NCBI RefSeq assembly: GCF_000504285.1 | Contig: NZ_KI632511.1 | Span: 1,733,372-1,797,371, forward strand | Length of the DNA: 64,000 nucleotides | Reading direction: 5' to 3' | DNA from: Actinospica robiniae DSM 44927 | Lineage (GTDB): Bacteria > Actinomycetota > Actinomycetes > Streptomycetales > Catenulisporaceae | Shown here: in pieces, positions 43,495 through 61,027 of the stretch | Position numbering within the stretch: the first letter of the stretch is position 1 | How the letters are laid out: each line of letters begins with the position of its first letter | The notes under the pieces: generated by a model | The model's input: only the letters and a program-made list of their open reading frames with translations | Database searches by the model: none | What the model was told of the DNA's origin: nothing | Translations under genes and position numbers: made by a program

Positions 43495-43681
43495 GCTGCC
43501 TGACTCGTCGCCTCCCGGGCGTATGCCGAAGTATCCGGGCGCCGGGCGCGCGGAACCGATAAGGTTGCGTGCAGCTGCGACTGGCGAGGGTGGAGTGACC
43601 ACCGGGAAGCGGCTTGGATCCGATGCGAGCGTCGACCGCCTGGGCGCTTCCGTCAGCGATGCCGCTGAGGAGGCCAGGGTT

Positions 43682-44842
43682 ATGGAACTGCGCTATGGCA
43701 TGAACCCGCACCAGGGCGCGGCGGAGGCCGCGCCGGTCTCGCAAGGCCGATGGCCGTTGCGTGTGCTCAACGGGAACCCCTCGCTCATCAACATGCTCGA
43801 CGCGCTCAACGGATGGCAATTGGTCCGCGAGGCGCGCCGAGTCCTGGGCCGGGAAGTCGCCACCTCGTTCAAACACGTCTCGCCCGCCGGGGCGGCGACT
43901 TCCGGCCCCGTCGAGGACGACATCGCCGAACTCTACGGCGTGTCCGCGGCGGACCTGAGCGCCGTGGCCGGCGCCTATCTGCGTGCCCGCGACGCGGATC
44001 CGAAATCGTCGTACGGAGACCTCGCCGCCGTCTCGGAGCCGGTGGACGAGGCGCTGGCCGAGGTCCTCAGCGGGCTGGTGTGCGACGGGATCATCGCGCC
44101 CGGATACGCGCCGGGCACGGTCGCGAAGCTGAGCCGTAAGAAGGACGGCCGGTTCCTCGTGATGGAGGCCGACGCGGGCTACAGCCCGCCACCACGCGAG
44201 ACGCGCGAGGTGTTCGGGCTTCGTCTGACTCAGGACCGCGACACGGCACCGGTGACGGCCGACGTACTCACCCGCGCCGTGGACGGGCAGCAGTTGCCAC
44301 CCCGGGCCGTCGCCGATCTCTTGCTCGGGCTGGTCGTCCTGCGCTATACCCAGTCCAACTCCGTTTGCTACGTACGAGACGGGGTGACGATCGGCATCGG
44401 CGCGGGGCAGCAGTCCCGCGTCGACTGCACCAGGCTCGCCGGCGCCAAGGCGGACACGTGGTGGCTGCGGCGCCACCCGTCCGTTCGCGCTATGGCCTTC
44501 CGTCCCGAAATCCGCCGCCAGGAGCGGATCAACTGGCAGATCCGCTTCATCGAAGGCGGGCTGACTGGCGAGGAGGCGACCCGCTTCGCCGAGGCCCTGT
44601 CCGTGCCCGCCGAGGCACTCACCGCCGACGCGCACTCGCGGTGGATCGCAGGTCTCGACGGCGTCGCCCTCGCCTCCGACGGTGCCCTGCCCTTCCGCGA
44701 CAACGTCGACCATGCCCGACGCCACGGCGTGCGCTACATCGCCGAACCCGGCGGATCCACCCGCTCCTCCGAAGTCGAACAGGCCTGCCGCGAACACGAC
44801 ATCGTCCTCGCCCGCACCGGCCTGCGCCTGTTCCACCACTGA
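43682..44842 (+). CDS. Stand-alone AICAR formyltransferase (PurH C-terminal domain only)
   Basis: This protein of about 386 residues corresponds to the AICAR transformylase half of PurH. It has 'MELRYGMNPHQ', 'LNGNPSLINMLDALNGWQLV', the catalytic Lys-His in 'SFKHVSPAGAA', 'YTQSNSVCYVRDGVTIGIGAGQQSRVDC' and 'PFRDNVDHARRHGVRYIAEPGGS'. The N-terminal IMP cyclohydrolase (MGS-like) domain is absent. GTG 43595 would add 29 residues. The ATG gives the usual family N-terminus and is preferred. It should transfer formyl from 10-formyl-THF to AICAR to give FAICAR. No other purine gene is nearby, so a special role is possible. Confidence 0.88.
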   Translation: MELRYGMNPHQGAAEAAPVSQGRWPLRVLNGNPSLINMLDALNGWQLVREARRVLGREVATSFKHVSPAGAATSGPVEDDIAELYGVSAADLSAVAGAYLRARDADPKSSYGDLAAVSEPVDEALAEVLSGLVCDGIIAPGYAPGTVAKLSRKKDGRFLVMEADAGYSPPPRETREVFGLRLTQDRDTAPVTADVLTRAVDGQQLPPRAVADLLLGLVVLRYTQSNSVCYVRDGVTIGIGAGQQSRVDCTRLAGAKADTWWLRRHPSVRAMAFRPEIRRQERINWQIRFIEGGLTGEEATRFAEALSVPAEALTADAHSRWIAGLDGVALASDGALPFRDNVDHARRHGVRYIAEPGGSTRSSEVEQACREHDIVLARTGLRLFHH

Positions 44843-46275: not shown

Positions 46276-47751
46276 ATGAGAAGGGAACGGCTGCGCCGGG
46301 ACCCGGTGCTGTACGAGGTTTACCTGAGGTCCTTCGCCGACAGTAACGGCGACGGTATCGGTGACCTCGCCGGGCTGACCTCCCGTCTCGACCATCTCGT
46401 CGATCTCGGCGTGGACGGCCTCTGGCTTACGCCTGTGTTCCGTTCGCCGCAGTTCGACTTCGGCTACGACGTCTCCGACTATCTCGACATTCACGTCGAG
46501 TACGGTTCGATGCCGGATATGGATGCGTTGATCGACGCGGCACATACGCGTGGTCTCGCGGTTATTCTGGACGTAATCATCGGGCATACCTCAATCGAGC
46601 ACTTCTGGTTCCGTGAGCACCCCGACCGGTATATCTGGGCGGACCAGATCCCGAACAACTGGCTGTCCGTCTTCGGTGGATCGGCCTGGCGGCACGATGA
46701 GGAGGCCGGCCGCTACTACTATCATCGGTTCTATCCCGAGCAGCCGAACCTCAACTGGGGGAATCCCGAGGTACGCCGGGCGGTCCACGAGATCCTCGGC
46801 TTCTGGACGGGCCGCGGTGTTGACGGGTTCCGGCTGGATTCGTTGGACGGTATCGCCGTCGATCCCGGGCTTCAGGACGAGCCGCTCGCAGATCCGTCGG
46901 CCCTGCGCGGCCGTGAGCGGGACCCTTGGGCACAGTACTGGAGCCTCCAGCACGTCCACACCTGCAACTTGCCCCAGGTGCTCACCGAGCTCAAAGAGAT
47001 CGCCACAGCGTTTCCGGATGCCGCCCTGGTGGTCGAGGCAGATCTGCCCAACGAGCAACTGCTGCCCTACATGCGGCTTGCCGACTGCTCCTTCGCCTTC
47101 GACTTCATCAGAGCCCCGCTCGACGGCGTCGCCCTCGCCCGTGTGATCGATGGCGCCGGGCTAGCCGGACGAGGCAATCTGGCCTGGGCGCTCTCGAACC
47201 ATGACCAGCCAAGGATGGTCAGTCGGTGGGGCCGCGACTTGGCGGGTGTCGCGGCGGTGCTCCTGCTGAGCCTGCCGGGATGGTCGTTCATCTACCAGGG
47301 CGACGAGATCGGTATGGTCGACGGCCCAGGCGGCCCGGACCTGCGCGACCGTAGCGGGCGGGACGCGGTGCGCCACCCCATGCAATGGAATCGGTCGGGT
47401 GGTTTCACCACCGGGACGCCGTGGCTCCCCTTCATCGACCCCGAGGTGTGCAACGTCGAGGACCAGCGCGGAGCAGCCGGATCGACCCTGGAGCAGTATC
47501 GGACGCTCATCCGACTCCGGCGCGAACTGCGCGGGCCGGTGCGGATCGTGGCAGCCGAACCTGGATTCCTGGCTTTTCGCCGCGGCGGCCATACGATCAG
47601 CCTCAATCTCGGGGACGAGGACCACGAACTCGGGCCCGGTCAGTTGGTCTACATGACCGGGCGTGTCGAGCCCGGGCGCCTCGGGCCGAGGTCCGCCGTC
47701 GTTCAGGTTGCCGACCCCGACAGCACCGGCGGTCAGCCCTCTGAGAGATAG
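46276..47751 (+). CDS. GH13 family glycosidase/glucosyltransferase
   Basis: This 491-residue cytoplasmic alpha-amylase superfamily enzyme begins 'DPVLYEVYLRSFADSNGDGIGDL'. Region II reads 'GFRLDSLDGI' (nucleophile Asp), region III 'VVEADLPN' (acid/base Glu) and region IV 'LSNHDQPRM', so the catalytic triad is intact. Region I reads 'VILDVIIGHTSIEHFW' where most members have Asn before His. The domain order resembles oligo-1,6-glucosidase, trehalose synthase and sucrose/trehalose-isomerising enzymes. Start ATG 46276 has GAGAAGG-like sequence downstream only, so a nearby alternative is possible. It is the first gene of the sugar cluster, 54 bp before the GT20 gene. Confidence 0.88.
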   Translation: MRRERLRRDPVLYEVYLRSFADSNGDGIGDLAGLTSRLDHLVDLGVDGLWLTPVFRSPQFDFGYDVSDYLDIHVEYGSMPDMDALIDAAHTRGLAVILDVIIGHTSIEHFWFREHPDRYIWADQIPNNWLSVFGGSAWRHDEEAGRYYYHRFYPEQPNLNWGNPEVRRAVHEILGFWTGRGVDGFRLDSLDGIAVDPGLQDEPLADPSALRGRERDPWAQYWSLQHVHTCNLPQVLTELKEIATAFPDAALVVEADLPNEQLLPYMRLADCSFAFDFIRAPLDGVALARVIDGAGLAGRGNLAWALSNHDQPRMVSRWGRDLAGVAAVLLLSLPGWSFIYQGDEIGMVDGPGGPDLRDRSGRDAVRHPMQWNRSGGFTTGTPWLPFIDPEVCNVEDQRGAAGSTLEQYRTLIRLRRELRGPVRIVAAEPGFLAFRRGGHTISLNLGDEDHELGPGQLVYMTGRVEPGRLGPRSAVVQVADPDSTGGQPSER

Positions 47752-47805
47752 ATCGTCACCAGGCCGGCCGGGCAGACCAGGCCGGCGATTCGGAAGGATC
47801 CGCCT

Positions 47806-49230
47806 ATGCGTTTGGTCACATGCTCCAACAGCGGACTGCAGGTTGGCCCGGACGGCTCCGTCCTGGCGGCCGGGCAAGCGACTCCGGGGGGGCTGGTACC
47901 GATCCTCACCGCCCTGCTCAGCGAGGTCGGCGGGCGCTGGATCTTCTCGGCGCCCGGCCTCAGCTCCGGCGAGGCTCCGGAGCGGCCGGACCGAACAGCC
48001 TATGAGAGGGATGTCCGCTGGCAGCCGCTGGCGCTGGACCAGGCCCTCATCGACGAGCAGCGGGAGTCCATAACAATCAGAACCCTGCTGTGGACCTTCC
48101 ACTACCTCCACGACACAGCCACGGCGCCGCTGTTCAGCGCCGACGTGCTTCGGGGTTGGGGCGCGTATGAAGAGGTGAACCGGCGATTCGCCGACGCCAT
48201 GGCCGAAGCGCTCCAAGGTGGGGCCGACGAAGTGGCGCTCGTGCACGATTTCCATCTGATGCTGGTCCCCGGCCTCCTCGCCGCCCGTACCCGTACCCGT
48301 GGCCGAGCCGGCCGGCTCGCGTACTTCCACCACATCCCCTGGTGCGAGCCGGACTACTTCGGGCTGCTTCCGGATTGGATGATCGCTCGTATCCTGGAGA
48401 GCTTGCTCACCTGCGACTTCGTCGGATTCCACAGCGGTCGGTGGGCCGACGCGTTCGCGGGCTGTGTAGAACGCTTTCTGCCGGACGCGGTCGTCGACGG
48501 ACGTCGCATCGCCTATCGTGGGCGCGAAACGGTGGTGACGGTGGCGCCTGGACCGATCGACGCCGCTGTTCTCGATGAGCTTTCCCGCGACCCGAAGACG
48601 GACTGGTGGCGGCAATCCCTCACTGCCCAGGCGGGCGGGCGGCGCCTCATCGTACGGGTGGACCGGATGGACCTGTGGAAGAACGTGGCCCGCGGCTTCG
48701 CCGCCTACCGAGAGCTGATCACCCGGCGCCCTGCCATCGCCGAAGACTACTGGTTCTGCGCGATCGTCTCGATGCCCAGGCTGGTCACCGAACGCCACCG
48801 GGAGTACAGGGCCCTGTGCGAAGACCTGGCGCGTAGCGCCAACGACGCCTGCGGGGCAGGGCGCGACGCGGTCACCCTCGTCTATCCGGACGGTTCCGGC
48901 AGCCCGCGCAACAGGGCGGCCGCGGCACTGTCCTTGGCTTCCGCCGTGTTCGTCAACCCGACATTCGACGGCTTGAACATGGTCGCGAAGGAGGCAGTGG
49001 TGCTCAACCCCGACGCTCCGCTGCTGCTGTCCGTGAACGCCGGGGTGTACCCGCAGCTGGCCGGACACGCAGTGCCGATTCAGCCTTTCGATGTGAGTTC
49101 GACTGCTGACGCACTGGAAAGCACGCTGTTTCGCAGTACACTGAACGGTGCTAGCGAAGTAGCGGCCGCAGTGCGGTCCGAGACCGCGGCGACGTGGCTA
49201 CAGGCGATTCTCCACACGTCTGGAGGCTGA
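47806..49230 (+). CDS. GT20 family protein: OtsA/VldE-like (pseudo)glycosyltransferase
   Basis: This 474-residue GT-B protein matches the trehalose-6-phosphate synthase family: 'LLWTFHYLHD', 'VALVHDFHLMLVPGLL', 'YFHHIPWCEPDYFGLLP', 'RVDRMDLWKNVARGFAAY' and 'FVNPTFDGLNMVAKEAVVLN'. Compared from memory with E. coli OtsA, the N-terminal 'SNR' (Arg9, phosphate contact) reads 'SNS' here. The donor-site 'LDYSKGL' reads 'MDLWKNV', closer to the validamycin enzyme VldE ('TDPIKNA'). The block 'GWGAYEEVNRRFADAM' also parallels VldE. It may join a nucleotide sugar or cyclitol to an unusual acceptor rather than make trehalose-6-P. ATG 47806 is preceded by GGAAGGA. Confidence 0.85.
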   Translation: MRLVTCSNSGLQVGPDGSVLAAGQATPGGLVPILTALLSEVGGRWIFSAPGLSSGEAPERPDRTAYERDVRWQPLALDQALIDEQRESITIRTLLWTFHYLHDTATAPLFSADVLRGWGAYEEVNRRFADAMAEALQGGADEVALVHDFHLMLVPGLLAARTRTRGRAGRLAYFHHIPWCEPDYFGLLPDWMIARILESLLTCDFVGFHSGRWADAFAGCVERFLPDAVVDGRRIAYRGRETVVTVAPGPIDAAVLDELSRDPKTDWWRQSLTAQAGGRRLIVRVDRMDLWKNVARGFAAYRELITRRPAIAEDYWFCAIVSMPRLVTERHREYRALCEDLARSANDACGAGRDAVTLVYPDGSGSPRNRAAAALSLASAVFVNPTFDGLNMVAKEAVVLNPDAPLLLSVNAGVYPQLAGHAVPIQPFDVSSTADALESTLFRSTLNGASEVAAAVRSETAATWLQAILHTSGG

Positions 49231-49271
49231 CCGCGTCCCGGTTCGTGCGTATGCGTCCCAGGGAGGGGAGA

Positions 49272-50429
49272 GTGGACGTTCGGACGGAGCCCCCGCGGGT
49301 ACCCTCGCGGCTCGGGATCGGACCGGTATCCAGAAACGTCGTCGACGCGGCGGTTCGCCTGGCATACCGCCGAAAGCGTCACGTGATGCTCGTGGCGAGC
49401 CGTGGCCAGATCGAGTGCGTCGAACTCGGCGGTGGCTACGTCGAGCAGTGGTCGACCTCCGGCTTCGCCGGATACGTCAGAGAGCACGACCCAAAGGGGT
49501 TGATGCTGCTGTGCCGGGATCACGGCGGACCGTGGCAGCACCCGGATGACGCGGCTCCCGGTGAACTGGCATCGGATACGCCGGACCGCGCGGAGGCCCG
49601 GGCCATCGGTCGCTGCCTGATCTCCCTGCGCGCCGACATCGATTCGGGGTTTGATCTGCTTCATCTCGATACCTCGCATGACAGTGCGGGCGAGGCCGAG
49701 TTCGACAGGGCCCTGCAGCGTCTGCTCGTGCTCTACGACGCCTGTAAGAATTACGCGGAATCGACCGGGCAGCGCGTCGCCTACGAGATCGGCCTCGAAC
49801 GGCAGGTACCCGACACTGACGACCCGGATCGCTTCGCCGTGCGGCTCGACCAGATCATGCAGGAGATCTCCGCGCGCGGATTGCCGAAGCCGACCTTCGT
49901 GGTGGCGCAGACCGGAACCATGGTGGTCGCGGCTGGCAACCGCGGGCTGATGGCTCGTTCGCCGGAGGACGTGGGCCGCACCGTAGGCGAGATCGCTCGC
50001 CGCTGCCGCGACTCCGGTGTCGCGCTCAAGGCGCACAACGTCGACTACTTGCCGGCCCGCGCCGTCGGCGAGCTGTTTCGACGCGGGACCGGGGCGGTCA
50101 ACGTGGCGCCTGAGTTCGGGGTCTGCGAGACCCGAGCATTCCTCGATCTGCTGACACAGTCCCAGTTGACCGCCGAGCGTGACCGGTTCCTCGGACTCGC
50201 CTACGACTCCGGCAGGTGGCGCAGATGGGCGGCCGAGGACACCGGCGACTTCGAGCGTGCCGTCCTGGCCGGCCACTACGTGTTCGGCACGGACGAGTTC
50301 CGCGAATTGAAGGAACGCGCGGACCACGCTGGCCGGGCCCGGCGCACATCCGTCGACACAGTGCTCGGCGAGGCATTGGACCGTTGCCTCGGCCGGTACG
50401 CCGATTTAGCGTGGGGAGCGCTGCCATGA
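49272..50429 (+). CDS. GatZ/KbaZ-like protein (tagatose-bisphosphate aldolase subunit family)
   Basis: This 385-residue TIM-barrel protein of PF08013 has 'VSRNVVDAAVRLAYRRKRHVMLVASRGQIECVELGGGYVEQWSTSGFAGYVRE', 'LMLLCRDHGGPWQ' and 'ADIDSGFDLLHLDTSHD'. In enterobacteria GatZ/KbaZ supports the class II aldolase GatY/KbaY. No GatY homologue is encoded here. Homologues acting alone have been reported as ketohexose(-phosphate) or uronate epimerases, so a C4 epimerase role is attractive but unproven. GTG 49272 follows GGGAGGGGAGA. An earlier frame start at 49194 lies inside the GT20 gene. Its stop overlaps the cupin gene start. Confidence 0.85.
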   Translation: MDVRTEPPRVPSRLGIGPVSRNVVDAAVRLAYRRKRHVMLVASRGQIECVELGGGYVEQWSTSGFAGYVREHDPKGLMLLCRDHGGPWQHPDDAAPGELASDTPDRAEARAIGRCLISLRADIDSGFDLLHLDTSHDSAGEAEFDRALQRLLVLYDACKNYAESTGQRVAYEIGLERQVPDTDDPDRFAVRLDQIMQEISARGLPKPTFVVAQTGTMVVAAGNRGLMARSPEDVGRTVGEIARRCRDSGVALKAHNVDYLPARAVGELFRRGTGAVNVAPEFGVCETRAFLDLLTQSQLTAERDRFLGLAYDSGRWRRWAAEDTGDFERAVLAGHYVFGTDEFRELKERADHAGRARRTSVDTVLGEALDRCLGRYADLAWGALP

Positions 50430-50911
50430 CGGACATCCTGACTGACCTACTCAACAATGCCACATGGCCGGAAGGCGGCGAGGCGCCGTCCGGGAGCCTG
50501 TCAGCCGGGCAGGCGAAGACGGTGCGCAAACCATGGGGCGAGGAGCGCTGGTTGGTGCCGGAAGGTGCGCCGTTCGGCTTCAAGCTGATCATCGTCCGTG
50601 CAGGTCTGCGTACCAGCCTGCAGTACCACCGCGCCAAGGAGGAGGCGAACCTCGTCCTGTCCGGCATCGGCCGGCTGCACCGGGCCGAGTCCCCGGACGC
50701 GCCAGCCACCGTGCATCCGCTCGTTTCCGGGCAGATCGTCCACGTGCTGCCCGGCGTGGTACACCGTGTGGAGGCCGTCACCGATCTCGTGATCGTGGAG
50801 GTGTCCACACCAGAGCTCGATGATGTTGTGCGCCTCGCCGACGACACGGGCCGCGGTGCCGGGCGTATCGCCGCTGAACACGAGCCACAGCCGCCGAGCG
50901 CACGGAAGTGA
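50426..50911 (+). CDS. Cupin protein, mannose-6-phosphate isomerase type II-like
   Basis: This 161-residue single cupin has 'VRKPWGEERWLVPEGAPFGFKLIIVRAGLRTSLQYHRAKEEANLVLSGIGRL' and 'GQIVHVLPGVVHRVEAVTDLVIVEVSTPELDDVVRLADDTGR'. This is the metal-binding cupin of the type II phosphomannose isomerase/GDP-mannose pyrophosphorylase C-terminus (His, Glu and second His visible). The nucleotidyltransferase half is absent. It overlaps the KbaZ-like gene (ATGA) and the following dehydrogenase gene (GTGA), so it acts in the same pathway, probably as a sugar-phosphate isomerase or epimerase. Confidence 0.85.
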   Translation: MTDILTDLLNNATWPEGGEAPSGSLSAGQAKTVRKPWGEERWLVPEGAPFGFKLIIVRAGLRTSLQYHRAKEEANLVLSGIGRLHRAESPDAPATVHPLVSGQIVHVLPGVVHRVEAVTDLVIVEVSTPELDDVVRLADDTGRGAGRIAAEHEPQPPSARK

Positions 50912-51996
50912 CCTCGAAAGGGGTTGACCCGGTGTCCTCGAGGGGCGCCTCGAGGACACCGCACGATGTGTCGTGGAGGATCGGCGTCCTGGCCGGAACC
51001 GGTACCGTACTAAAGCGTACGCTTCCGGCGCTTCTTGCGTCGACGGATTGCCGCGTGACCGTCATGCACGGGCGCGACCCGGACCGGCTCAGGGCGGTGG
51101 CTGCCGTTGATCCGACTATCCGTCTGGCTGCGAGCGAAGCGCAGTTCGCCGAGCTCAGGCCGTATTACGACGTCGTCTTCATCGGATCGCCGCCGTTTCT
51201 GCATCTGCCGCACCTCGAACTCGCATTTCGGCTTGGCACTCCGGTCATCTGCGAGAAGCCGTTGACGGCTCGCCGTGCGGACTATCCGCGGCTGGCCGGA
51301 CTGCTCGGCGCAGGCGGCCTGCCGTTCGCTCTCGCTCACCAGGTCCGGCACCAGCAGGCGGTCGCCGAACTATCGCGGTTGATCAGCTGCGGCGACCTGG
51401 GTGCTCCGGTCGCAGCCGACCTGCACTGGTGCTTTCTGATGAACCATGCCGCATCGAACGCCCGATGGAAACTCGATCCGACGCTCGGCGGCTCGAACGC
51501 CATGTTCGACTGCGGGGTCCATGCCATCGATCTGGCGCTATTGCTGTTCGGCATGCCGACCCGAGCCGGCGCCACCGCGCACCGGATCAATGGCGCCGCG
51601 GTGCAGGATGCGGTGACTGTCGTCCTCGACTACCCGGGCTTGGCGGTCACGATCGTCGCCTCCCAAGCAGCCGCGGCCGCCGGAAACGACGTGCGCATCG
51701 TGTTCGAACGCGGCACGGCGCACGCGCGCGGCCTCCTCGGCGAGCGAGCCGCGCCCGCCGTCGAAGTCGTCGGAGCGAAAGCGCAATCGGCCGGGCACGT
51801 CAAGAAGATCGCGTGCGCAGACGACGACCTTTACCGCCGCGAAGTCGAGGACTTCTGCAGGTCGCTGAACGGGTCGGCGCCTGGGCTGGGAACTAGTGCC
51901 GCCGAGGCCCTCGACGCCGCGCGGATCCTGTTCGCCATCGAGGATTCCATAGCCTCAGGGCGGTTCGTCGAGCTTGGCGGGTACTGTCCTCAGTAG
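50908..51996 (+). CDS. Gfo/Idh/MocA family dehydrogenase
   Basis: This 362-residue NAD(P)-dependent oxidoreductase has an N-terminal Rossmann domain. The nucleotide-binding start 'WRIGVLAGTGTVLKRTLPAL' is slightly unusual (GTGTV in place of GxGxIA). 'VVFIGSPPFLHLPHLELAFRLGTPVICEKPL' carries the EKP lysine, and the C-terminal sheet domain contains 'GGSNAMFDCGVHAIDLALLLFG' with the catalytic His. It probably oxidises or reduces a secondary hydroxyl of a sugar or cyclitol intermediate made by the upstream enzymes. GTG 50908 overlaps the cupin stop. Its 3' end overlaps the convergent GH31 gene by 7 bp. Confidence 0.88.
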   Translation: MTSKGVDPVSSRGASRTPHDVSWRIGVLAGTGTVLKRTLPALLASTDCRVTVMHGRDPDRLRAVAAVDPTIRLAASEAQFAELRPYYDVVFIGSPPFLHLPHLELAFRLGTPVICEKPLTARRADYPRLAGLLGAGGLPFALAHQVRHQQAVAELSRLISCGDLGAPVAADLHWCFLMNHAASNARWKLDPTLGGSNAMFDCGVHAIDLALLLFGMPTRAGATAHRINGAAVQDAVTVVLDYPGLAVTIVASQAAAAAGNDVRIVFERGTAHARGLLGERAAPAVEVVGAKAQSAGHVKKIACADDDLYRREVEDFCRSLNGSAPGLGTSAAEALDAARILFAIEDSIASGRFVELGGYCPQ

Positions 51997-54452
51997 TCGT
52001 CGGCAGCTGAGATGATCTCCAACAGGGCGCCGTACAGGTTGCCGGGCAGCGCGAGGGAGTGCCAGAGCCCGGCAAGCGCCGTCCCAGAGAGCCGGCCTGC
52101 CGCGTATCGCTCGGCGGCGGCGTACGCGTGTTCCTTGACTTCATAGTCGATTGCTGCCTCCTGGAGGATGTCGAACACGTCCTCCGCTGTGGTGCGGCTG
52201 AGCGGCCGCAGCCGGGATACCTGGGCGACGGCGACGGACAGATCGAGGCAGCCCAGGTCCACGATCACGCCGGATGGCAGCGGCCCGACGCCCACCCGGT
52301 CCGACCCACTGACCGGCCGCTCCTCGCCGGCGGCCGGACGGCTGAGTGCGGCAGCGACCGGCGCCGTCTGCACGCCGATGAGATCGAGCAGCACAATGCG
52401 CTTTGTCAAACTGCCCTGACCTTTGACGGGGCCGATGGCCAGGTGTAGTTCGGCGGTATCGTCTCCGACGTCCGACCAATGCGTGGTTACCGGCGTTTCG
52501 TGCCGCTCAGCCGTCGTCGGATACGCCGAGCCGTCGTCCTCATAGAGGACCGCCGATCCCGAAGAGCCGGGAAAGGCCCGAAGGACGATTGCAGCCGGAT
52601 TGGCGTCGGCGGACGCCATGGGATCGGCTGCAAGCGGGATCACGGCTCCCGCTCTGGCGAACACAGGCATCTGCGCCAGTCGGCGGTGTAGCACCAAGCG
52701 TCGGCCGCCGGTGTAGCGGCGACCGGTGAAGAAGTCGAACCAGATCCCCTCGGGCAGCCAGACCGACACGGTAGCCAAGTGGGATACGGCGTCGGCCGGC
52801 GCTGTCACGGGAGCGACCAGCAGGTCGGGGCCGAACATGTACTGGTTCGTAACACAATAAGCCTCGGGCTGGTCCGGGTAGTCGTGGTACATGGGGCGGA
52901 CAACGCCGAGGCCATCAGTATGCGCGGTCCACATGGCGCTGTACATATACGGCACCATCAGGTGCCGCAGACGCAGGAAGTCGGCCATGATCCCAGCTGC
53001 CTCGGTTCCACGCAGCCACGGCTCGCGCGAGTCGAACCGGCTCCGGCTGGAGTGCAGCCGGTTGATCGGCGAGAAAGCACCGAACTGATACCACCGCACG
53101 GCGAGCTCGTCGTCCCGGGCACCGAGCATGTGGCCGCCGACGTCGTTGCTCCACCAGAAGAAGCCGAGGTTCGCCGCAGTCGCGGTGAAGTACGGCTGGA
53201 AGGCGAGTGAGGCCCAGGTGGCAATGGTGTCGCCGGAGAATCCGACCGGATAGCGGTGGCCGCCGGGTCCGGCGTTGCGCGAGAGCGTCAGAGGCCGACG
53301 TCCGCAGCGCCCTGAGTCCGTATAATGCAGATGATTGAGCAACCAGAGCGGGTCCACGCCGCGGGCGCGTGTGGCGCCGCCGGCCTGCCAGTGCCAGTCC
53401 ACCCACCAAAAATCCACGCCCTGTTCTTCGAGCGGATGGTGCAGGAGCGAGAGGTAGTGCTCCGCAAAGTCCCGGCTGGCAGGGTCGAAGGCCACCTCGC
53501 GGCCTGTGGCCGGGTCCTGACCGAGCGCCCGGGCGAGCTGAGGGTACGCTGCCTCGTGTCGGCGCACCCCATCACCGGGATGGAGGTTGAGGGACACGGC
53601 CAGGCCCCGTTCGTGCAATTCACGCAGGAACGCGGGGGCGTCCGGGAAGAGCTCGGGGTTCCAGGTGTAGCCGGTCCACCCGGCGCCGAGTTCCGGGTCG
53701 AGGTCGACGAGATGCCAGTCCATGTCCAGGACTGCGACGGACAGGGGGATGCCTTCGGCGGCGAACCTGTCCATGAGCTGCAGGTATTCTTCGTCGCGGT
53801 ACCGGTGGTAGCGGCTCCACCAGTTGCCCAGAGCATACCGGGGCAGTAGCGGGCTCGGGCCGGTGAGATGGAAGTAGTCGCGTAGCGCGGAGCGGAAGTC
53901 GCGCCCGTAACCGAAGAAGTAGAGGTCTTCCCCGGTCTCGGGGCCGGGAGTGAACCAGTCGTCTGCTGTGAAGAGCATCGCTCGCGGATCGCTGATGACG
54001 GCCAGCCCGTTCGCAGACAGAACGCCCGACGAGAGCGGTACCGGGCCGTCGGCGTCGTCGAGTGCCGACACCGTGCCGCCGAGGTTGTCCAGGGCGGTCG
54101 GGTGGCACGGCAGCGTCTCGCCGAATCGCCATGTTGTCACCAGGGCGGTCGGCGGCTTCGTGCGCAGCGAGATGCTGAGCCCTTCCGGGGTGAACCGCTC
54201 TCGGTTGTAGCTCAGATGCAGGGAGCGCGTCCAGAGATTGAGGGTTCCCCCTTCGTCGGTGACTGTGAACTCGGGCACTGGGAAGCGGCGGTTGACCGCC
54301 AGCTGGGTCGGCAGGTCGACGAACTCCTCCCGGTCGCTCCACTCCATACGGATGAGCCGGTCGGTCAAAACGGAGAAGCGATAGCCTGGACCTTGGACGA
54401 CGCACCGCGGGTCAGCGGCGGCGTCGGGCCCGAAGGCGTGAAATCTCAACAT
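51990..54452 (-). CDS. GH31 family glycosidase (alpha-glucosidase/transglucosidase-like)
   Basis: This 820-residue cytoplasmic enzyme has an N-terminal beta-domain (about 1-190). The TIM barrel (about 205-540) has 'LPRYALGNWWSRYHRYRDEEYLQLMDRFAAEGIPLSVAVLDMDWH', nucleophile Asp in 'DFWWVDWHW' and acid/base Asp in 'VGFSGDTIATWASL'. C-terminal beta-sandwiches include 'VWLPEGIWFDFFTGRRYTGG'. The last 100 residues are an additional segment. Members act on alpha-linked glucosides. Here it may hydrolyse or transfer onto the cluster product. It is transcribed against the rest and divergent from the HAD gene 86 bp away. Confidence 0.9.
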   Translation of the reverse strand: MLRFHAFGPDAAADPRCVVQGPGYRFSVLTDRLIRMEWSDREEFVDLPTQLAVNRRFPVPEFTVTDEGGTLNLWTRSLHLSYNRERFTPEGLSISLRTKPPTALVTTWRFGETLPCHPTALDNLGGTVSALDDADGPVPLSSGVLSANGLAVISDPRAMLFTADDWFTPGPETGEDLYFFGYGRDFRSALRDYFHLTGPSPLLPRYALGNWWSRYHRYRDEEYLQLMDRFAAEGIPLSVAVLDMDWHLVDLDPELGAGWTGYTWNPELFPDAPAFLRELHERGLAVSLNLHPGDGVRRHEAAYPQLARALGQDPATGREVAFDPASRDFAEHYLSLLHHPLEEQGVDFWWVDWHWQAGGATRARGVDPLWLLNHLHYTDSGRCGRRPLTLSRNAGPGGHRYPVGFSGDTIATWASLAFQPYFTATAANLGFFWWSNDVGGHMLGARDDELAVRWYQFGAFSPINRLHSSRSRFDSREPWLRGTEAAGIMADFLRLRHLMVPYMYSAMWTAHTDGLGVVRPMYHDYPDQPEAYCVTNQYMFGPDLLVAPVTAPADAVSHLATVSVWLPEGIWFDFFTGRRYTGGRRLVLHRRLAQMPVFARAGAVIPLAADPMASADANPAAIVLRAFPGSSGSAVLYEDDGSAYPTTAERHETPVTTHWSDVGDDTAELHLAIGPVKGQGSLTKRIVLLDLIGVQTAPVAAALSRPAAGEERPVSGSDRVGVGPLPSGVIVDLGCLDLSVAVAQVSRLRPLSRTTAEDVFDILQEAAIDYEVKEHAYAAAERYAAGRLSGTALAGLWHSLALPGNLYGALLEIISAADDY

Positions 54453-54537
54453 CGCGTAGCCGGTCTTCCATTGTCGTCGGATGGAGTGCGGATGCGTAAC
54501 GCGATATCAGGGTAGGCGCCAGGTAGGGAGGTGCAGG

Positions 54538-55233
54538 TTGGACGGGCCCAAGGTTCATGCGGTCGTGTTCGACTTCCACGCCACCTTGTTCCATTTCCAG
54601 GACGGCCCCGATTGGGTGCTGCACGCAGCGGCCGACATCGGGCGGCAGCTGGATCTCGAGGGGGCCGCAGTCATCTGGTCGAAGGCGGCCAAGGCGCGGC
54701 ACGATCCTGATGTCGTACGCCTGCAGCAGGGCCGGGACTTGTCCAGGGCCTCGCATCGGGAGGCTACGTGCGGCTGGCTCTCGCACGCCGGCCTTGATCC
54801 CGAGCTGGTCGAAGCTATGTACACGGTGCTCTGTGCTCCGCCCTTCTGGTCTCCCTTTCCGGACACGGCGCCGGTGCTCGCTGAATTGTCCCGGCGCAGC
54901 GTGCCGGTCGCAGTGCTGAGCAACACCGGCTGGGACATCCGGTTTGTCTTCCGTCACTATGGAGTGGAACGGGCGATCTCGTCGTTCGTGCTCTCCTACG
55001 AGATGGCGAAGGAGAAACCTGACCCGGATCTGTTCCGGCATGCGTGCGAGCTGCTCGCGGCGGATCCAGCGTCCACGATCATGGTCGGCGACGACCCGGT
55101 GGCCGACGGCGGTGCCGTGTTCGCCGGGATGCCGACCCTCCTCCTGCCCGTCCAGCCCCTGCGCCAGCGCCCGCGCGGGCTGGCAGCGGTTCTCGGCTTG
55201 CTGGAGCAGGTCGGATCCGCGGGGACCGACTGA
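54538..55233 (+). CDS. HAD superfamily phosphatase
   Basis: This protein of about 231 residues has motif I 'VVFDFHATLF' (DxH instead of the usual DxD), motif II 'VAVLSNTGWD', motif III Lys in 'EMAKEKPDPDLFRHA' and motif IV 'TIMVGDDPVADGGAVFAG'. The His replacing the second Asp of motif I is unusual, because that Asp is normally the acid/base of phosphatases. TTG 54538 follows GGGAGG. An ATG at 54481 has no such site. In a trehalose-type pathway it would dephosphorylate the product of the GT20 enzyme, which is an inference. Confidence 0.82.
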   Translation: MDGPKVHAVVFDFHATLFHFQDGPDWVLHAAADIGRQLDLEGAAVIWSKAAKARHDPDVVRLQQGRDLSRASHREATCGWLSHAGLDPELVEAMYTVLCAPPFWSPFPDTAPVLAELSRRSVPVAVLSNTGWDIRFVFRHYGVERAISSFVLSYEMAKEKPDPDLFRHACELLAADPASTIMVGDDPVADGGAVFAGMPTLLLPVQPLRQRPRGLAAVLGLLEQVGSAGTD

Positions 55234-55234
55234 C

Positions 55235-55999
55235 TCACGCGGGAGCCGCAGTCGCCTCCTGCACCGCCGTCGCCTCTTGCTCCGCAGTCCACTCCGACGC
55301 TGCGGCCGGCGCCGGTGATTCGGTGGGCGGCTGTTCGAGCTCGACCGCCGGCCCCGACTCCTCGATCGGCTCCGACTCCTCGGTCACGGGTGTCACGACT
55401 GGTGCGGGCGCGTGGCCATCCCCCTCGCTACCGAGCTGCAGCGCCTTGCTCGCCCGTTCCTGCTGCGTCGTCGTATTCGTCGGGACCCTTCGCAAGATGA
55501 TGGTGCCCATCGAAACGCCGATCACTGCGTAGACGGCGGCCACGACCCAGCCTGCCGAGGCCCCGTACGCATGTCGTGCGAAGGCGAATGCGATGTACGC
55601 GGTGGCGAAGTAGTACGCGCCGGCCAGCAGGTAGAATGCGGAGACGAGATATGTGTCGACGAGACGGTTGTCGACCGATCCGATATTGGGGTCATAGGTG
55701 GACTCGAGCCAGGCCTCCCACCCATCACTGCCCATGATCTCCTTTTCGATGTTCAACCGGATGTAACGGCCGCACCGCATAATACTGTTCCACTGATTGA
55801 GGTAGAGCAGCACGGTGACGACGACCACCATCGGCAGGGTTATGAGGATGGGGGTCGCCGAGTAGTAGGCGACGATGCCGACGACAGCGGGAATGAGCGT
55901 GGCACTGCCGACCATGATCTTGAACGCGCGGTCGAGGCAGTTTTCGATCTCTTTCCGCAGCGTGTGGAACTGCAACTCCTGGTACCTAGCCCGATCCAT
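55235..55999 (-). CDS. Four-helix membrane protein with acidic Pro/Ala tail
   Basis: This protein of about 254 residues begins with 'MDRARYQELQFHTLRKEIENCLDRAFKIMVG', which I associate with a widespread uncharacterised membrane family. Helices lie at about 28-45, 48-68, 120-140 and 148-170. The segment 'LNQWNSIMRCGRYIRLNIEKEIMGSDGWEAWLES' lies between the pairs. The C-terminal 75 residues are Glu/Pro/Ala-rich and probably disordered. ATG 55999 follows GGAGGAG. It abuts the HAD gene end-to-end and is divergent from the second dehydrogenase operon. The role is unknown. Confidence 0.7.
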   Translation of the reverse strand: MDRARYQELQFHTLRKEIENCLDRAFKIMVGSATLIPAVVGIVAYYSATPILITLPMVVVVTVLLYLNQWNSIMRCGRYIRLNIEKEIMGSDGWEAWLESTYDPNIGSVDNRLVDTYLVSAFYLLAGAYYFATAYIAFAFARHAYGASAGWVVAAVYAVIGVSMGTIILRRVPTNTTTQQERASKALQLGSEGDGHAPAPVVTPVTEESEPIEESGPAVELEQPPTESPAPAAASEWTAEQEATAVQEATAAPA

Positions 56000-56131
56000 A
56001 ACGCGTGCTCCTCCCCGCGCCAGACCCACCCCGGCTGCGCCGGCCATTGGCTTACCGTATGAGGCTACTGTAGTTCGTGGGCTAGTGTGTGTGGTTCAGC
56101 CCGATCCACCTTCTGCGTTGCCGACATCTGA

Positions 56132-56142
56132 CACACCTTTGA
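56132..56142 (+). promoter_or_regulatory. Shared motif CACACCTTTGA upstream of the second dehydrogenase
   Basis: An exact copy of the 11-mer at 46021-46031, located 92 bases before GTG 56234 in the divergent promoter region. It is preceded by 'ctgcgttgccgac', loosely similar to 'ctgcaacgtcgg' before the first copy. Possible regulator site for the cluster. Confidence 0.3.
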
Positions 56143-56233
56143 CTCCTCTCGTTTATGTTCGACGCGGATGCGTTGCTTCGCTAATGTTGCCCGCGTACAA
56201 CGGTGACCCGGACGGGTCGGGAGGAGCGCTGCC

Positions 56234-57268
56234 GTGTCGGAGCGAGTGCGCCTGGCATTGATCGGCGCTGGGCGGATCGCCCAGGTCGCGCACCTGCCGG
56301 CACTGGAAAAGGCAGACGGTGTGGAGTTGGTCGCGGTCAGCGACCCAGGGCCAGGCTTGGCCGAGGCGGTGGCTGGTCGGTACGGAGTGCCGGCCGCGTA
56401 TACCGCGACCGAGGCGATCTTCGACGATCCGGACGTCGAGGCGGTGCTCATTGCCGCGCCGGATCGCTTCCACTACGCCCTCGCCTCCGCGGCGCTGGGC
56501 GCCGGCAAGCACGTCCTCGTCGAGAAGCCCCTGGCCGCCGACGCGACGCAAGGTCGTGCCCTGGCCGTCCAGGTCACCGGCACAGCGCTCAAGCTCCAGG
56601 TCGGGGCCATGAAACGACACGATCCGGGGTTGGAGTTCGCGCGCCGGTTCGTCGCGGAATCCCTCGGCCAGGCCCGAACCTTCGATGTCTGGTACCGAAT
56701 CGGCGACATGCGCCCGCAGATCGAGGCAGCTCTCTTTCCGGTCGTGTTCGCGGACGAGGCCGCGGCGCCGAAGGAGGCAGAGATCAAGGCCGACCGGCAG
56801 CGCTACCTGCTCGCAACCCATGGCGCCCACGTCTTGGACACAGTGCGATATCTGCTTGGAGACGTCGCGACCGTCACTGCGCAGCATCGCGGATACGGCC
56901 GAGATCAGGCCTGGACAGCCTTGCTCACCATGGCCAACGGCGCGATGGGCACACTTACACTGAGCGTAGACGTTCCCGGAGTCCCGGCCGAAGGCATCGA
57001 GGTCTTCGGTGCGGAGGGGTCCGTGCGCGTCGACACCCACTTCCCATTTTACCGGCGCGCGTCGACAGTGCGCGCCTACAGCGCTGGCGGGATCATCGAG
57101 CCGATTCTGCCCGATGGGGATGCCTACGAACGACAGGTCGAGGCGTTCGTCCGTGCAATCCGCGAAGACGGCCCGACTACACCGGACGCCGCGGATGGCG
57201 TGGCCGCGCTTGAACTGATCGACGCCATCACAACGGCGGCGGCAACGGGCCATACGGTGACGTTGTAG
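56234..57268 (+). CDS. Gfo/Idh/MocA family dehydrogenase
   Basis: This 344-residue oxidoreductase has a classic dinucleotide site 'RLALIGAGRIAQVAHLPALEKADGVELVAVSD', then 'EAVLIAAPDRFHYALASAALGAGKHVLVEKPL' (EKP Lys, about 97) and 'LLATHGAHVLDTVRYLLGDVATVTAQ' with the catalytic-type His (GAHVLD). GTG 56234 follows GGGAGGAGCG. It is coupled to the TIM-barrel isomerase gene (stop and start share 1 base, TAGTG). Pairs of this kind act on inositols or on 3-keto-sugars, so oxidation of a ring hydroxyl followed by isomerisation or elimination is the likely chemistry. Confidence 0.9.
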   Translation: MSERVRLALIGAGRIAQVAHLPALEKADGVELVAVSDPGPGLAEAVAGRYGVPAAYTATEAIFDDPDVEAVLIAAPDRFHYALASAALGAGKHVLVEKPLAADATQGRALAVQVTGTALKLQVGAMKRHDPGLEFARRFVAESLGQARTFDVWYRIGDMRPQIEAALFPVVFADEAAAPKEAEIKADRQRYLLATHGAHVLDTVRYLLGDVATVTAQHRGYGRDQAWTALLTMANGAMGTLTLSVDVPGVPAEGIEVFGAEGSVRVDTHFPFYRRASTVRAYSAGGIIEPILPDGDAYERQVEAFVRAIREDGPTTPDAADGVAALELIDAITTAAATGHTVTL

Positions 57269-58197
57269 TGGTGGCAGAACTCGAAGACGGCGATCCCGCG
57301 ATCGCGCGCGCGCCGCTGGACGGCGCCGCTCAAGATGAGCCTGTGGCCTTCGAAGCGCGACTTGGCATTTTCGCCCGGACCTTCCGCCGACAGAGCGCCG
57401 CGCAGGTCGCAACAGCTGTCGCCGAAGCCGGCTATTCTCTCGCGCATTGGAACTTCGCCGCCATCGGCCTCTCCACACTCGCGGACGAAGTCAACGGCTC
57501 ACAGTTCACAGAGGTGCGCGATGCGTTCCGCGCGTACGGTCTACAGATCCCCAGCGTCTCGGCGACGTTCAACGCAGTGCACCCGGACCCTGCGACCCGG
57601 CAATCCGCCGTCCGCAAGGCGGTCCGCCTCGTAGCGTTAGCCCCGCTGCTCGGCGCGGAGGTTGTCACCCTGTGCAGCGGAACTCGGGACCCGGACGACA
57701 TGTGGCACGCGCATCCGGACAATGGCAGCCGAGACGCGTGGACCGATCTGAGGCGTACGCTCGACGAATTGCTTGAGGCGGCCTCTGCCGCCGGCGTGCG
57801 GCTCGGCGTCGAGCCGGAGCCGGGCAATGTGATCGCGAACGCCGCGCTCGCGGCCCGCCTGTTGCATGAGATCGGCGACGACGCACCCCTGGGCATCGTG
57901 TTCGATCCGGCAAATCTGCTCAGCCCCGACACCGTCGGCCGGCAAATCGAGATCTTGAACCAAGCCTTCGACCTCCTGCAGCCTCATATCCTGAGTGCCC
58001 ATGCGAAAGACGTCGTAGCGGGCGGATACAGTGCTCCGGGGGTCGGGCTCATGGACTATCATCACGTGCTGGACCTCATCGAACGGGTCCCCGGGGTGCC
58101 GTTGATCGTACAGGACGCCGAGCCCGGTGACGCCGCCCGCGTGAACATCGACCTTCGGCGGTGGCATCAGGAGTCGCGGGCGGGCGGCGGTGCGTAG
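57268..58197 (+). CDS. Sugar phosphate isomerase/epimerase (AP endonuclease 2-like TIM barrel)
   Basis: This protein of about 309 residues has 'EARLGIFARTFRRQSAAQVATAVAEAGYSLAHWNFAAIG', 'GAEVVTLCSGTRDPDDMW', 'GVRLGVEPEPGNVIANAALAARLLHEI', 'GIVFDPANLLSPD', 'HILSAHAKDVVAGG' and 'VPLIVQDAEP'. Together these carry the Glu, Asp, His and Glu/Asp metal ligands of the IolE/Hyi-type xylose-isomerase-like barrel. GTG 57268 shares a base with the dehydrogenase stop. The first 28 residues precede the barrel, so the true start may be later. It should act on the keto product of the neighbouring dehydrogenase. Confidence 0.87.
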   Translation: MVAELEDGDPAIARAPLDGAAQDEPVAFEARLGIFARTFRRQSAAQVATAVAEAGYSLAHWNFAAIGLSTLADEVNGSQFTEVRDAFRAYGLQIPSVSATFNAVHPDPATRQSAVRKAVRLVALAPLLGAEVVTLCSGTRDPDDMWHAHPDNGSRDAWTDLRRTLDELLEAASAAGVRLGVEPEPGNVIANAALAARLLHEIGDDAPLGIVFDPANLLSPDTVGRQIEILNQAFDLLQPHILSAHAKDVVAGGYSAPGVGLMDYHHVLDLIERVPGVPLIVQDAEPGDAARVNIDLRRWHQESRAGGGA

Positions 58198-59026
58198 AGG
58201 GGGCGACGTACGACATCGCATCCAACCGCCGAGCACTCAGGCTGGCTGGCTGTGTGCAAAGGATGCACCGCCGGTGCTGCTCCTTCACGGTCTCGGTGGG
58301 AACCGGGATCAGGCGATGGACCTCCTCCCGGCGGCCTGGCCCGGCACGCGGATTGCCCCGGACCTACCAGGGCACGGCTCGGCAGCACTACACTCGCGGC
58401 AAGCCGTCGGATTCGACGCATTCGCCATATTGATCGCAACCTTTCTCGACCGCTTGCACACCGAGGCGCTCATCCCGCCGGGGCCCGTGCCCGTCGTCGG
58501 GGTGTCGATGGGTGCGGGTGTCGCCGTCCGGCTTGCCGCAGATCGTCGCGACCTGGTGAGCCGCCTTGTGCTCGTCCGGCCGACCTGGCTCGATACCGGC
58601 TCTCCGGCGCACCTGGCCCCGTTCCAGGCCGTCGCCGATCTGTTGCGGCGGCACGGGTCGGCCCAGGGGGCGCGTCTGTTTCAGGCCGGCGGACTCTATC
58701 GGTGCCTTGCCGAAACGGCTCCGGCGACCGCCGAGTCACTGCTCAAGCAGTTCACCCGGCCGGCAGCCGAACGCCATGTGCGCGTCCTAGAAGAGTTGCC
58801 CGCTGACTGCCCGCTGCCCAGCCGCGCCCACTACGCAGCGCTCGACACGGACATCTTCGTGATCGTCTCGGACGATCCGCTGCATCCCGCCGCTGTAGGA
58901 CTGACACTCCAGAAATGGATCCCGGCATCCAGGATCATCGAGATCGTGAACAAAAACATGGATCCGCATGCGCATCAGCGCGCGCTTCACGATGCCGTCA
59001 TAGGCGAACTTGATCACTTGAACTAG
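58190..59026 (+). CDS. Alpha/beta hydrolase
   Basis: This protein of about 278 residues has the alpha/beta hydrolase pattern: 'APPVLLLHGLGGNRDQAMDLLPAAWPGTRIAPDLPGHGSA' (oxyanion HG), nucleophile elbow 'VVGVSMGAGVAVRLA' (GVSMG, Ser about 105), a late acid in 'IFVIVSDDPLHP' and His in 'NKNMDPHAHQRAL'. GTG 58190 overlaps the isomerase gene by 8 bp. It is the last gene of the sugar cluster and could cleave an ester or a keto-sugar fragment. The substrate cannot be predicted. Confidence 0.85.
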   Translation: MRRGGDVRHRIQPPSTQAGWLCAKDAPPVLLLHGLGGNRDQAMDLLPAAWPGTRIAPDLPGHGSAALHSRQAVGFDAFAILIATFLDRLHTEALIPPGPVPVVGVSMGAGVAVRLAADRRDLVSRLVLVRPTWLDTGSPAHLAPFQAVADLLRRHGSAQGARLFQAGGLYRCLAETAPATAESLLKQFTRPAAERHVRVLEELPADCPLPSRAHYAALDTDIFVIVSDDPLHPAAVGLTLQKWIPASRIIEIVNKNMDPHAHQRALHDAVIGELDHLN

Positions 59027-59494: not shown

Positions 59495-61027
59495 GGCTCA
59501 TCGAGCTTGACCGTGCTGTCAGGCTTTTGAGCGGCGTCTGGGTTGGGCGTGGGGTCCGCTGGTGTGGGTGGTGAGGTGTCCACGGGCGCGGCGGGTGGTG
59601 GCGGCGCGTGCGCGTAGGCGCTGGTTGGCGGGGTTGCGGTAGCCGTAGGCGGTGCGGGCGTCGGTTTTGATCACGCGGTTGGTGCCCTCGGAGCCCGCGT
59701 TCGTCACGCCGGTGGTGATCGCGGCGAGGATCTGCGGCCACCAGGTCGAGACGGTGCCGGCCAGCCGCGTGATCTCCGGCAGGCCGCAGGCGGCGGCGTT
59801 CTCGTAGAACCTGATCAGCAGAGCGCTGATCTGTGCCCGGTCCGGGTGTGTGCCGTGGAGTGCGAGCAGGTCCATCAGGTCTTCCTTGACGTTCCATGCC
59901 TTGAGGATCGGTATACCGATCTTCGCGGGCAGTGCCCGGAGGTCGTCGATCATCGGGTCCAGGTGCTTCGCGTGCATCCGTGTGCCGGCGCGGGTGAGCC
60001 TGTTTCTCAGCTCCCACTCCCGGTTGCCCTTGCGTCCTCGGCGTCCGCGCGCCTGGACGGTGACGCGGCGGCGTACCTCGGTCAGCGCTGTGTTCGCCAG
60101 TTGCGCGACGTGGAAGCGGTCGACCACCAGCGCCGCGTGCGGCAGGCTGGTGCGGATCGCGGCCTTGAACACGGTGCACATGTCGATCGCCACGACCTGG
60201 ACTCCGGCTCGCCATTGCGGGCTCTGCGCCTCGATCCACGCCGAGAGCGTCTCGGCGGTGCGGCCCTCGACCTGCCCGAGCAGTCCGGCGCCGCCGCCGA
60301 GATCGACCATCCCGACGTGCCATTTATCGGCCACGACCTCCCACTTCTCGTCGCCGCCTTCGCCGGGCACGAGCCGGAAGCGCGCCTTGCCGCGCCGGAT
60401 CTCGTCGATGCCCAGGCGTGCGACCTGCGGTGTCTCGGCCGGTAGCGCGAGGCGGGTGTGGGCGGCGAACGCCGTCTGCGCGATCGGCCAGGACACCTCG
60501 TGGTCGCGGGCGGCCTGGATCACGGTGCGCCCGCGGTCGGCCACCGCCGCTCCGATCGAGGCGCGAAGCCGACCGGTCAGCCGGGCACGCGGCGGGATCT
60601 GCGGGACCGACTCGGTGAAGGTCGCCCGCTCACAGGCGGCGTTGCGGCAGCGCCAACGCCGCTTGGTCCACGTCAGCGCCGTCCGGCGCCCTGCCACCGG
60701 CAGATCCCGTGGCCGGGTGCGCACCCACGAATGCGCGTGCTGTGAACGCATCCCGCAGCCGGGACAGCATCTGGCCTGCTCAGACGCGGTCACCAGTGCC
60801 AGTATCGGATTCTCGTCGTCATCGAGCATGACGCGCACGACCTGCACCCCGTCGAGTCCGAACAGCAATGTCGTATCGTTGACCAAGCCCGTGGCTCCCT
60901 CGCGATCACTCTTGTCTCAGCAACTCGAATGATCACAGAGCGCCACGGGCGCCTCTACTTCAGCAAGACCCTGATCTACGGGCCACCGAACGCCCTACAC
61001 CTCAAGCACGGTCAAGCTCGATGAGCC
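59495..61027 (-). mobile_element. Intact ISL3-family insertion sequence
   Basis: This 1533-bp element is bounded by perfect 23-bp terminal inverted repeats beginning GGCTCATCGAGCTTGACC (59495-59517 and, inverted, 61005-61027). It has one transposase gene filling the element and an 8-bp target duplication outside. Size, repeat length and duplication length all fit ISL3. Every part looks intact, so it may still move. It inserted at the border between the sugar cluster and the peptide/regulator genes. Confidence 0.93.
59519..60886 (-). CDS. ISL3 family transposase
   Basis: This 455-residue DDE transposase has an N-terminal zinc-binding domain ('CCPGCGMRSQHAHSWVRTRPRDLPVAGRRTALTWTKRRWRCRNAAC', CxxC..CxxxxC) and a helix-turn-helix region. 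The catalytic domain has 'VARLGIDEIRRGKARF', 'GVQVVAIDMCTVFKAAIRTSLPHAALVVDRFHVAQLANTAL' (Asp residues) and a C-terminal 'GVTNAGSEGTNRVIKTDARTAYGYRNPANQRLR' (catalytic Glu). The length is usual for the family and the frame is unbroken. The stop lies 2 bp inside the left terminal repeat. It catalyses cut-and-paste movement of the element. Confidence 0.95.
   Translation of the reverse strand: MVNDTTLLFGLDGVQVVRVMLDDDENPILALVTASEQARCCPGCGMRSQHAHSWVRTRPRDLPVAGRRTALTWTKRRWRCRNAACERATFTESVPQIPPRARLTGRLRASIGAAVADRGRTVIQAARDHEVSWPIAQTAFAAHTRLALPAETPQVARLGIDEIRRGKARFRLVPGEGGDEKWEVVADKWHVGMVDLGGGAGLLGQVEGRTAETLSAWIEAQSPQWRAGVQVVAIDMCTVFKAAIRTSLPHAALVVDRFHVAQLANTALTEVRRRVTVQARGRRGRKGNREWELRNRLTRAGTRMHAKHLDPMIDDLRALPAKIGIPILKAWNVKEDLMDLLALHGTHPDRAQISALLIRFYENAAACGLPEITRLAGTVSTWWPQILAAITTGVTNAGSEGTNRVIKTDARTAYGYRNPANQRLRARAATTRRARGHLTTHTSGPHAQPRRRSKA

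Follow-up and report, generated by a model that had tools for sequence, protein, structure and literature searches.

The glycosyltransferase family 20 (GT20) includes OtsA, which makes trehalose-6-phosphate, and VldE/ValL, which couple cyclitols. A trehalose-like disaccharide is also reached by the ntdABC operon for kanosamine and neotrehalosadiamine, whose logic is that of a Gfo dehydrogenase and a HAD phosphatase; to our knowledge, neither a KbaZ-like protein nor a GT20 belongs to that operon. In Escherichia coli, GatZ and KbaZ epimerise fructose-6-phosphate at C4, for which a zinc-dependent retro-aldol mechanism is predicted (PMC11907403), and a similar mechanism has been proposed for UxaE (PMC11194214). 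In addition, the E. coli YcjQRS system for 3-keto-glucosides contains both an IolE-like TIM barrel and a Gfo dehydrogenase (PMC11543891). Relatives of these enzymes stand together in a cluster of eleven genes of Actinospica robiniae DSM 44927, which is the subject of this report. The cluster lies in a stretch of 64,000 nucleotides of contig NZ_KI632511.1, called the window hereafter, to which all positions refer. Its first five genes form a core that recurs elsewhere, and its last three form a trio that recurs apart from this core. The reading preferred here, tentatively, is that the core makes a trehalose-like non-reducing hetero-disaccharide and that the island consists of two or more modules. 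All eleven genes proposed in an initial annotation of this DNA are open reading frames (ORFs), as follows.

46276-47751, + strand: GH13 alpha-glucosidase-type enzyme (PF00128, 312 bits), which opens the core run
47806-49230, + strand: GT20 glycosyltransferase, divergent and altered at acceptor-site residues (PF00982, 226 bits)
49272-50429 (likely GTG start), + strand: GatZ/KbaZ-like TIM-barrel protein, predicted to epimerise sugars by a metal-dependent retro-aldol reaction
50426-50911, + strand: PMI-type cupin, predicted phosphosugar isomerase (PF01050, 29.7 bits, cut-off 23.6)
50908-51996, + strand: GfoA, a Gfo/Idh/MocA oxidoreductase (PF22725, 75.7 bits), which closes the core run
51990-54452, - strand: GH31 alpha-glycosidase (PF01055, 204 bits)
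54481-55233, + strand: HAD-family hydrolase, phosphatase candidate (PF00702, 58.3 bits)
55235-56047, - strand: protein without assigned family, membrane-bound by eye (no Pfam or NCBIfam match at E ≤ 0.001)
56234-57268, + strand: GfoB, an inositol-dehydrogenase-like Gfo/Idh/MocA protein (PF01408, 89 bits), which opens the trio
57268-58197, + strand: IolE-like xylose-isomerase TIM barrel, AP_endonuc_2 (PF01261, 85.5 bits), second of the trio
58190-59026, + strand: alpha/beta hydrolase (PF00561, 53 bits), third of the trio

Nine of the eleven proteins score above the Pfam cut-offs, the exceptions being the KbaZ-like protein and the protein of 55235-56047. The families given in the initial annotation therefore hold for ten genes, for the KbaZ-like one by a sub-cut-off match, while the protein of 55235-56047 looks membrane-bound by eye; the latter is probably outside the pathway. 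The cupin was scanned as the longer ORF 50216-50911 and the KbaZ-like protein as 49194-50429, the residue numbers of which count from 49227. The same annotation had seen no cyclase, aminotransferase or transporter, and none is found among the 16 ORFs scanned at 41.4-62.3 kb, with 44.8-46.3 kb outside the scan. An MMPL protein is encoded at 36.9-39.2 kb.

The order GH13-GT20-KbaZ-cupin-Gfo is kept in Actinokineospora fastidiosa (locus L016), with identities to the window proteins of 33%, 54%, 48%, 61% and 51%, respectively, so the arrangement is more than chance, and the block that the initial annotation had suggested looking for in other actinobacteria is conserved there. In an actinobacterial metagenome-assembled genome (MAG), AC_30 (L034), KbaZ, cupin and GT20 are consecutive and followed by a short-chain dehydrogenase, and a GH13 (42% identity) lies on the other strand. 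GH31 has no match in the DNA examined at these two loci. KbaZ-like proteins were found in only four of 293 genomes of the order and five of 394 genomes of the class, counts that include A. robiniae itself, and in none of the 13 genomes listed for its genus or family. Across the named genome collection, 200 stretches carry KbaZ-like relatives, of which 80 were kept.

The GT20 is most informative on the possible product. Its best solved relative is 5lqd (183 bits), an OtsA, of S. venezuelae, and VldE comes second with 120 bits, above all other solved OtsAs (E. coli OtsA, 88 bits). With the OtsA model TIGR02400, however, it reaches 183 bits, far under the cut-off of 564.85. In the tree, the GT20s of the window, A. 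fastidiosa and the MAG form one clade (support 100/98), and VldE stands apart on a long branch; the tree carries a long-branch warning, its deeper placement is unsure, VldE was entered without its first 31 residues, and the fragments L106 and L107 were omitted as well as the repeats L099-L103. Each of the three genomes has a second GT20 elsewhere, which keeps the OtsA residues wherever letters are present. Other GT20s in the 394 genomes of the class share at most 41% identity among the matches listed.

The residues were compared in an alignment of 40 rows without the same five repeats. The 34 OtsA-type rows retain R9, Y76, W85 and R360 wherever letters are present, whereas W85 and R360 are gone in all three linked GT20s and R9 and Y76 are gone in those of the window and A. 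fastidiosa, the window protein having S, R and L at R9, Y76 and W85. In contrast, D130, H154, R262, K267, R300, D361 and E369 are retained in all three, which include all catalytic and donor-site residues checked in the window protein (D130, H154, R262, K267, D361 and E369). Directly after D130, the linked GT20s have F, F and H in place of Y. According to PMC6879718, mycobacterial OtsA binds glucose-6-phosphate via Arg18, Tyr90, Asp144, Gln146 and Arg324 and contacts trehalose-6-phosphate also via Tyr145. By position alone, these correspond to R9, Y76, D130, residue 132, R300 and residue 131, respectively. The ligand contacts of VldE are described in PMC3441724. Judged by the residue pattern, the enzymes of the window and A. 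fastidiosa probably act on a changed acceptor. The acceptor is still likely to be phosphorylated because R300, a phosphate contact, is retained.

The residue pattern and the clade of the three linked GT20s make an ordinary trehalose-6-phosphate synthase, or a VldE, unlikely as the identity of the window enzyme. In the former case the GT20 would be a second such synthase, the HAD protein its phosphatase and the neighbours unrelated. The retained catalytic and donor-site residues and R300 agree with this, as do R9 and Y76 in the linked MAG enzyme and the adjoining GH13, which in A. fastidiosa is the trehalose synthase TreS itself. However, the score of 183 bits against 565, the alteration of R9, Y76 and W85 while the paralog retains them and the conserved linkage to KbaZ and cupin render it quite unlikely. 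The initial annotation, which had named an ordinary synthase as the finding that would overturn its proposal, had also placed the GT20 near VldE; this kinship was rejected by the tree placement, in line with the better OtsA score and the lack of a cyclase among the ORFs scanned. Another candidate was the GT20 that locus L037 of Streptomyces sp. SID3343 encodes close to KbaZ. It was rejected as a clade member, since, with its open frame trimmed to the likely start, it retains R9, Y76, W85 and R360 and is an ordinary OtsA. In the same strain, a further GT20 (L104, G649:C31:1865-3160) has the VldE residue pattern and pairs with VldE at 100/100; it marks a candidate C7N pseudo-glycosyltransferase cluster.

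The KbaZ-like protein would provide the unusual sugar. PF08013 gives it 18.7 bits, under the cut-off of 26.7, and its relative in L066 30.8 bits. Its structure model (pLDDT 93.1) matches GatZ/KbaZ-type chains at Z 34.5 and 33.5 (top match 2fiq_D, Z 34.5, rmsd 2.7, 349 residues aligned), and lower matches are tagatose 4-epimerase (28.4), UxaE (26.8) and class II aldolases (about 24). The catalytic residues D87, H88 and H257 of GatZ (PMC11907403) are D98, H99 and H270 here, invariant in 48 of 48 family rows, and E171 is E191, being E in 45 rows and D in three. These rows comprise 46 of the 80 kept loci, the window and L013; L020, which contains a stop, is not among them, nor are L055 and L085 from Legionella, which were omitted by choice. 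The simplest reading of the alignment and the model would be the same chemistry as in GatZ/KbaZ on a different substrate.

This fold also bears on the proposal that a pseudo-disaccharide is made, in which the KbaZ-like protein would act as an intramolecular aldolase closing a carbocycle and the GT20 would couple the cyclitol like VldE. The fold and site are class II aldolase-like, the adjoining Gfo could provide the ketone, R360 and Y76 are absent from VldE as well as from the window GT20, and among the solved relatives VldE ranks second as a group. On the other hand, VldE forms its long separate branch and keeps W85, which the window GT20 has lost, neither a cyclase nor an aminotransferase was seen among the ORFs scanned, and we know of no cyclising relative of the KbaZ-like protein, so that this route appears improbable.

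Of 81 KbaZ loci, which come from many phyla, 66 have a PMI-type cupin no more than 6 kb away from KbaZ, a count that includes the Legionella loci, treats near-identical Streptomyces loci separately and contains some loci that end at contig edges. The window cupin has many invariant residues in common with 65 cupins of KbaZ loci, each taken as the best cupin match anywhere in its locus. No solved relative was found by sequence for the cupin or for the IolE-like protein. Near KbaZ, the same 81 loci have a KdsC-like phosphatase (42 loci), a nucleotidyltransferase-kinase fusion (42), a glycosyltransferase (GT)-like protein (38), a methyltransferase (27) or a DegT aminotransferase (21). In 16 of the 21 DegT loci, DegT is encoded on the KbaZ strand, no more than about 3 kb behind KbaZ, and six of these 16 also have a HAD phosphatase nearby. 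Because the partner genes vary, the KbaZ-cupin pair would seem to yield one common intermediate, which is then reduced, aminated or activated. The combination of a Gfo with a HAD gene in the window follows the logic of ntdABC, but no DegT-type aminotransferase is among the window ORFs scanned, although DegT is present in the sister KbaZ-cupin loci.

Several types of KbaZ loci can be distinguished. L013 and many of L039-L092 carry a block KdsC-KbaZ-GT-like-cupin-nucleotidyltransferase/kinase-methyltransferase in apparent surface-sugar loci, and the hosts include Prochlorococcus, Pelagibacter, Polynucleobacter, Nitrotoga and Chlorobium; the pathway of this block is not known to us. Eight actinobacterial loci without cupin carry a gene that is kinase-like by eye, with only a sub-threshold TCAD9 match. 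In L015, L018, L019, L021, L023, L025, L027 and L048 such a kinase-like gene follows KbaZ; seven of these loci have a HAD phosphatase nearby, six encode an aldos-2-ulose dehydratase-type beta-propeller protein at most 6 kb away, and L018 additionally has ThuA. Furthermore, 11 Streptomyces-type loci (L024, L026, L028-L033, L035, L036 and L038) have a GT2-like gene just before KbaZ and DegT after it, and L009, of the GT2-like-KbaZ-DegT type, also encodes a protein of about 300 residues without a Pfam match as well as a GNAT, the latter assigned by eye.

In the preferred disaccharide reading, the KbaZ-like protein and the cupin would convert a common sugar phosphate, at first guess fructose-6-phosphate, into an unusual hexose phosphate, the former by metal-dependent retro-aldol/aldol epimerisation at C4 and the latter by aldose-ketose isomerisation. 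GfoA may then oxidize or reduce the unusual sugar, and the GT20 would use a nucleotide donor to attach glucose, or possibly a different sugar, to it, which would yield the trehalose-like hetero-disaccharide. The GH13 may remodel or hydrolyze this disaccharide. Every substrate, product and direction named here is inferred. The initial annotation had likewise proposed a modified disaccharide made from phosphosugars, and a trehalose-type hetero-disaccharide is still the best reading of the core, while VldE kinship and a single pathway did not stand.

A number of observations weigh against this scheme. The divergent GT20 is common to only two other loci of the 81, and no Gfo match is present in the 11.6 kb contig of the MAG. 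The best solved relative of the window GH13 is the alpha-glucosidase 2ze0, and with the TreS model TIGR02456 it scores 251 bits, short of the cut-off of 678, whereas the A. fastidiosa GH13 is TreS with 827 bits; because of this, the GH13s of the window, A. fastidiosa and the MAG are not established as orthologues. W85 is a presumed glucose-6-phosphate-site residue. R360 corresponds by position to mycobacterial Arg384, a residue in a loop of a regulatory site that makes no contact to glucose-6-phosphate (PMC6879718). The MAG GT20 retains R9 and Y76, and the phosphate contact R300 is retained in all three linked enzymes. Moreover, E44 of GatZ is replaced by I or V (43 and 5 of 48 rows) and K279 by N (48 of 48), so that fructose-6-phosphate is possibly not the substrate. 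Finally, no cupin was seen near KbaZ in 15 of the 81 loci; eight of them are of one actinobacterial type, and several end at contig edges.

The trio of GfoB, IolE-like protein and alpha/beta hydrolase behaves differently from the core. All 12 further rhizobial loci retrieved (L152-L163), chosen from the best matches, carry it without interruption, and no KbaZ, cupin or GT20 match was found in them; the relatives in the same slots share 33-36% (GfoB) and 28-35% (hydrolase) identity. At E ≤ 1e-20, none of 295 other genomes of the class encodes a relative of the IolE-like protein, but among 199 genomes of the Sinorhizobium family 42 have matches at E ≤ 1e-15. Because the trio recurs without the core in all these rhizobial loci, it is a separate module, probably a catabolic one, and one pathway of all eleven genes, as the initial annotation had assumed, was rejected. 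The island is thus probably two or more modules, in which the trio would handle ring-keto sugars or glycosides and might recycle the product.

The model of the IolE-like protein, built on two sequences, is moderate (pLDDT 68.8). It resembles sugar isomerases and 3-epimerases with Z up to 25.6, and YcjR matches at Z 22.2, but many sugar 3-epimerases and isomerases match equally or better, so that 3-epimerases, isomerases and YcjR are not separated. Furthermore, YcjQRS has a second dehydrogenase where the window trio has an alpha/beta hydrolase (PMC11543891). In S. shofinae, a group IolE-PIG-L-Gfo-hydrolase lies 5-8 kb from KbaZ-cupin-DegT-HAD, the only such locus among those seen; its Gfo is weakly GfoB-like (29% over 145 residues), and its IolE gene is about 14 kb away from a closer relative of GfoB (43%). 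In A. fastidiosa, too, a weak match to GfoB (42% over about 100 residues) lies further down. In two rhizobial trio loci, the partly scanned surroundings encode ROK or FGGY kinases together with a class II aldolase-type protein.

The trio speaks for catabolism, and the whole island could serve to dismantle a glycoside of plant or microbial origin: it would be cleaved by GH13, GH31 and the GH1 encoded upstream, the Gfo and IolE-like proteins would process ring-keto sugars, and KbaZ and cupin would feed the rare sugar into glycolysis. The contiguity of the trio in rhizobia, the sugar kinases in the two partly scanned neighbourhoods, the hydrolase type of GH31 and GH13 and the position of E. coli KbaZ and GatZ beside phosphotransferase system (PTS) and other sugar-catabolic genes argue for this. 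The best solved relative of the GH31 is 7wj9 (657 bits), a chain titled alpha-xylosidase. However, the GT20 would have no obvious role, KbaZ and cupin stand elsewhere near GT-like proteins, nucleotidyltransferase-kinase fusions and aminotransferases, and no transporter is among the ORFs scanned, so that a wholly catabolic island is rather unlikely, if less so than the other alternatives above.

The junctions and composition of the region were also inspected. Overlaps of 1-8 bp, reported in the initial annotation, are confirmed at five junctions, namely KbaZ/cupin (4 bp), cupin/GfoA (4 bp), the convergent GfoA/GH31 (7 bp), GfoB/IolE (1 bp) and IolE/hydrolase (8 bp); that of GT20/KbaZ is doubtful because the GTG at 49272, behind a ribosome-binding site strong by eye, is the likelier KbaZ start. 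Since two genes sit on the opposite strand, about five transcription units would be expected. The G + C content at third codon positions (GC3) is 0.75-0.82 in all eleven genes versus a mean of 0.886 in 16 other window genes (p = 0.00013), and this low GC3 common to all eleven suggests that they were jointly imported as a horizontally acquired island, which is likely rather than proven. Two points speak against it, that is, the 16 controls came mostly from a gene-picking script favouring high GC3, and the control gene just downstream, 61655-62269, has a GC3 of 0.78. An ISL3-type transposase gene lies downstream at 59519-60886, and a GH1 beta-glucosidase followed by an AICARFT/IMPCHase-like gene occupies 42064-44842. 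A literature search, with subscription journals mostly outside its coverage, gave no paper describing the gene set, and no paper on the KbaZ-cupin pair was found.

A wider proposal, held with more reserve than the disaccharide reading itself, is that KbaZ and cupin are an undescribed pair of many phyla that builds a rare sugar out of a sugar phosphate, with GT20 and Gfo (as here), DegT or a kinase-nucleotidyltransferase as alternative endings, and that the window product belongs to a new class of non-reducing hetero-disaccharides, the maker being a relative of OtsA whose acceptor site has been re-tuned. If this is true, the pair would be a sugar-building step for which four catalytic residues and a candidate chemistry can be named, spanning apparent surface-sugar genes of Prochlorococcus, Pelagibacter and many others as well as actinobacterial clusters. 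In addition, the GT20 family would have a further specificity beside trehalose-6-phosphate synthesis and VldE-type coupling, and the loss of W85 and R360 would be a marker for finding hidden trehalose-like products.

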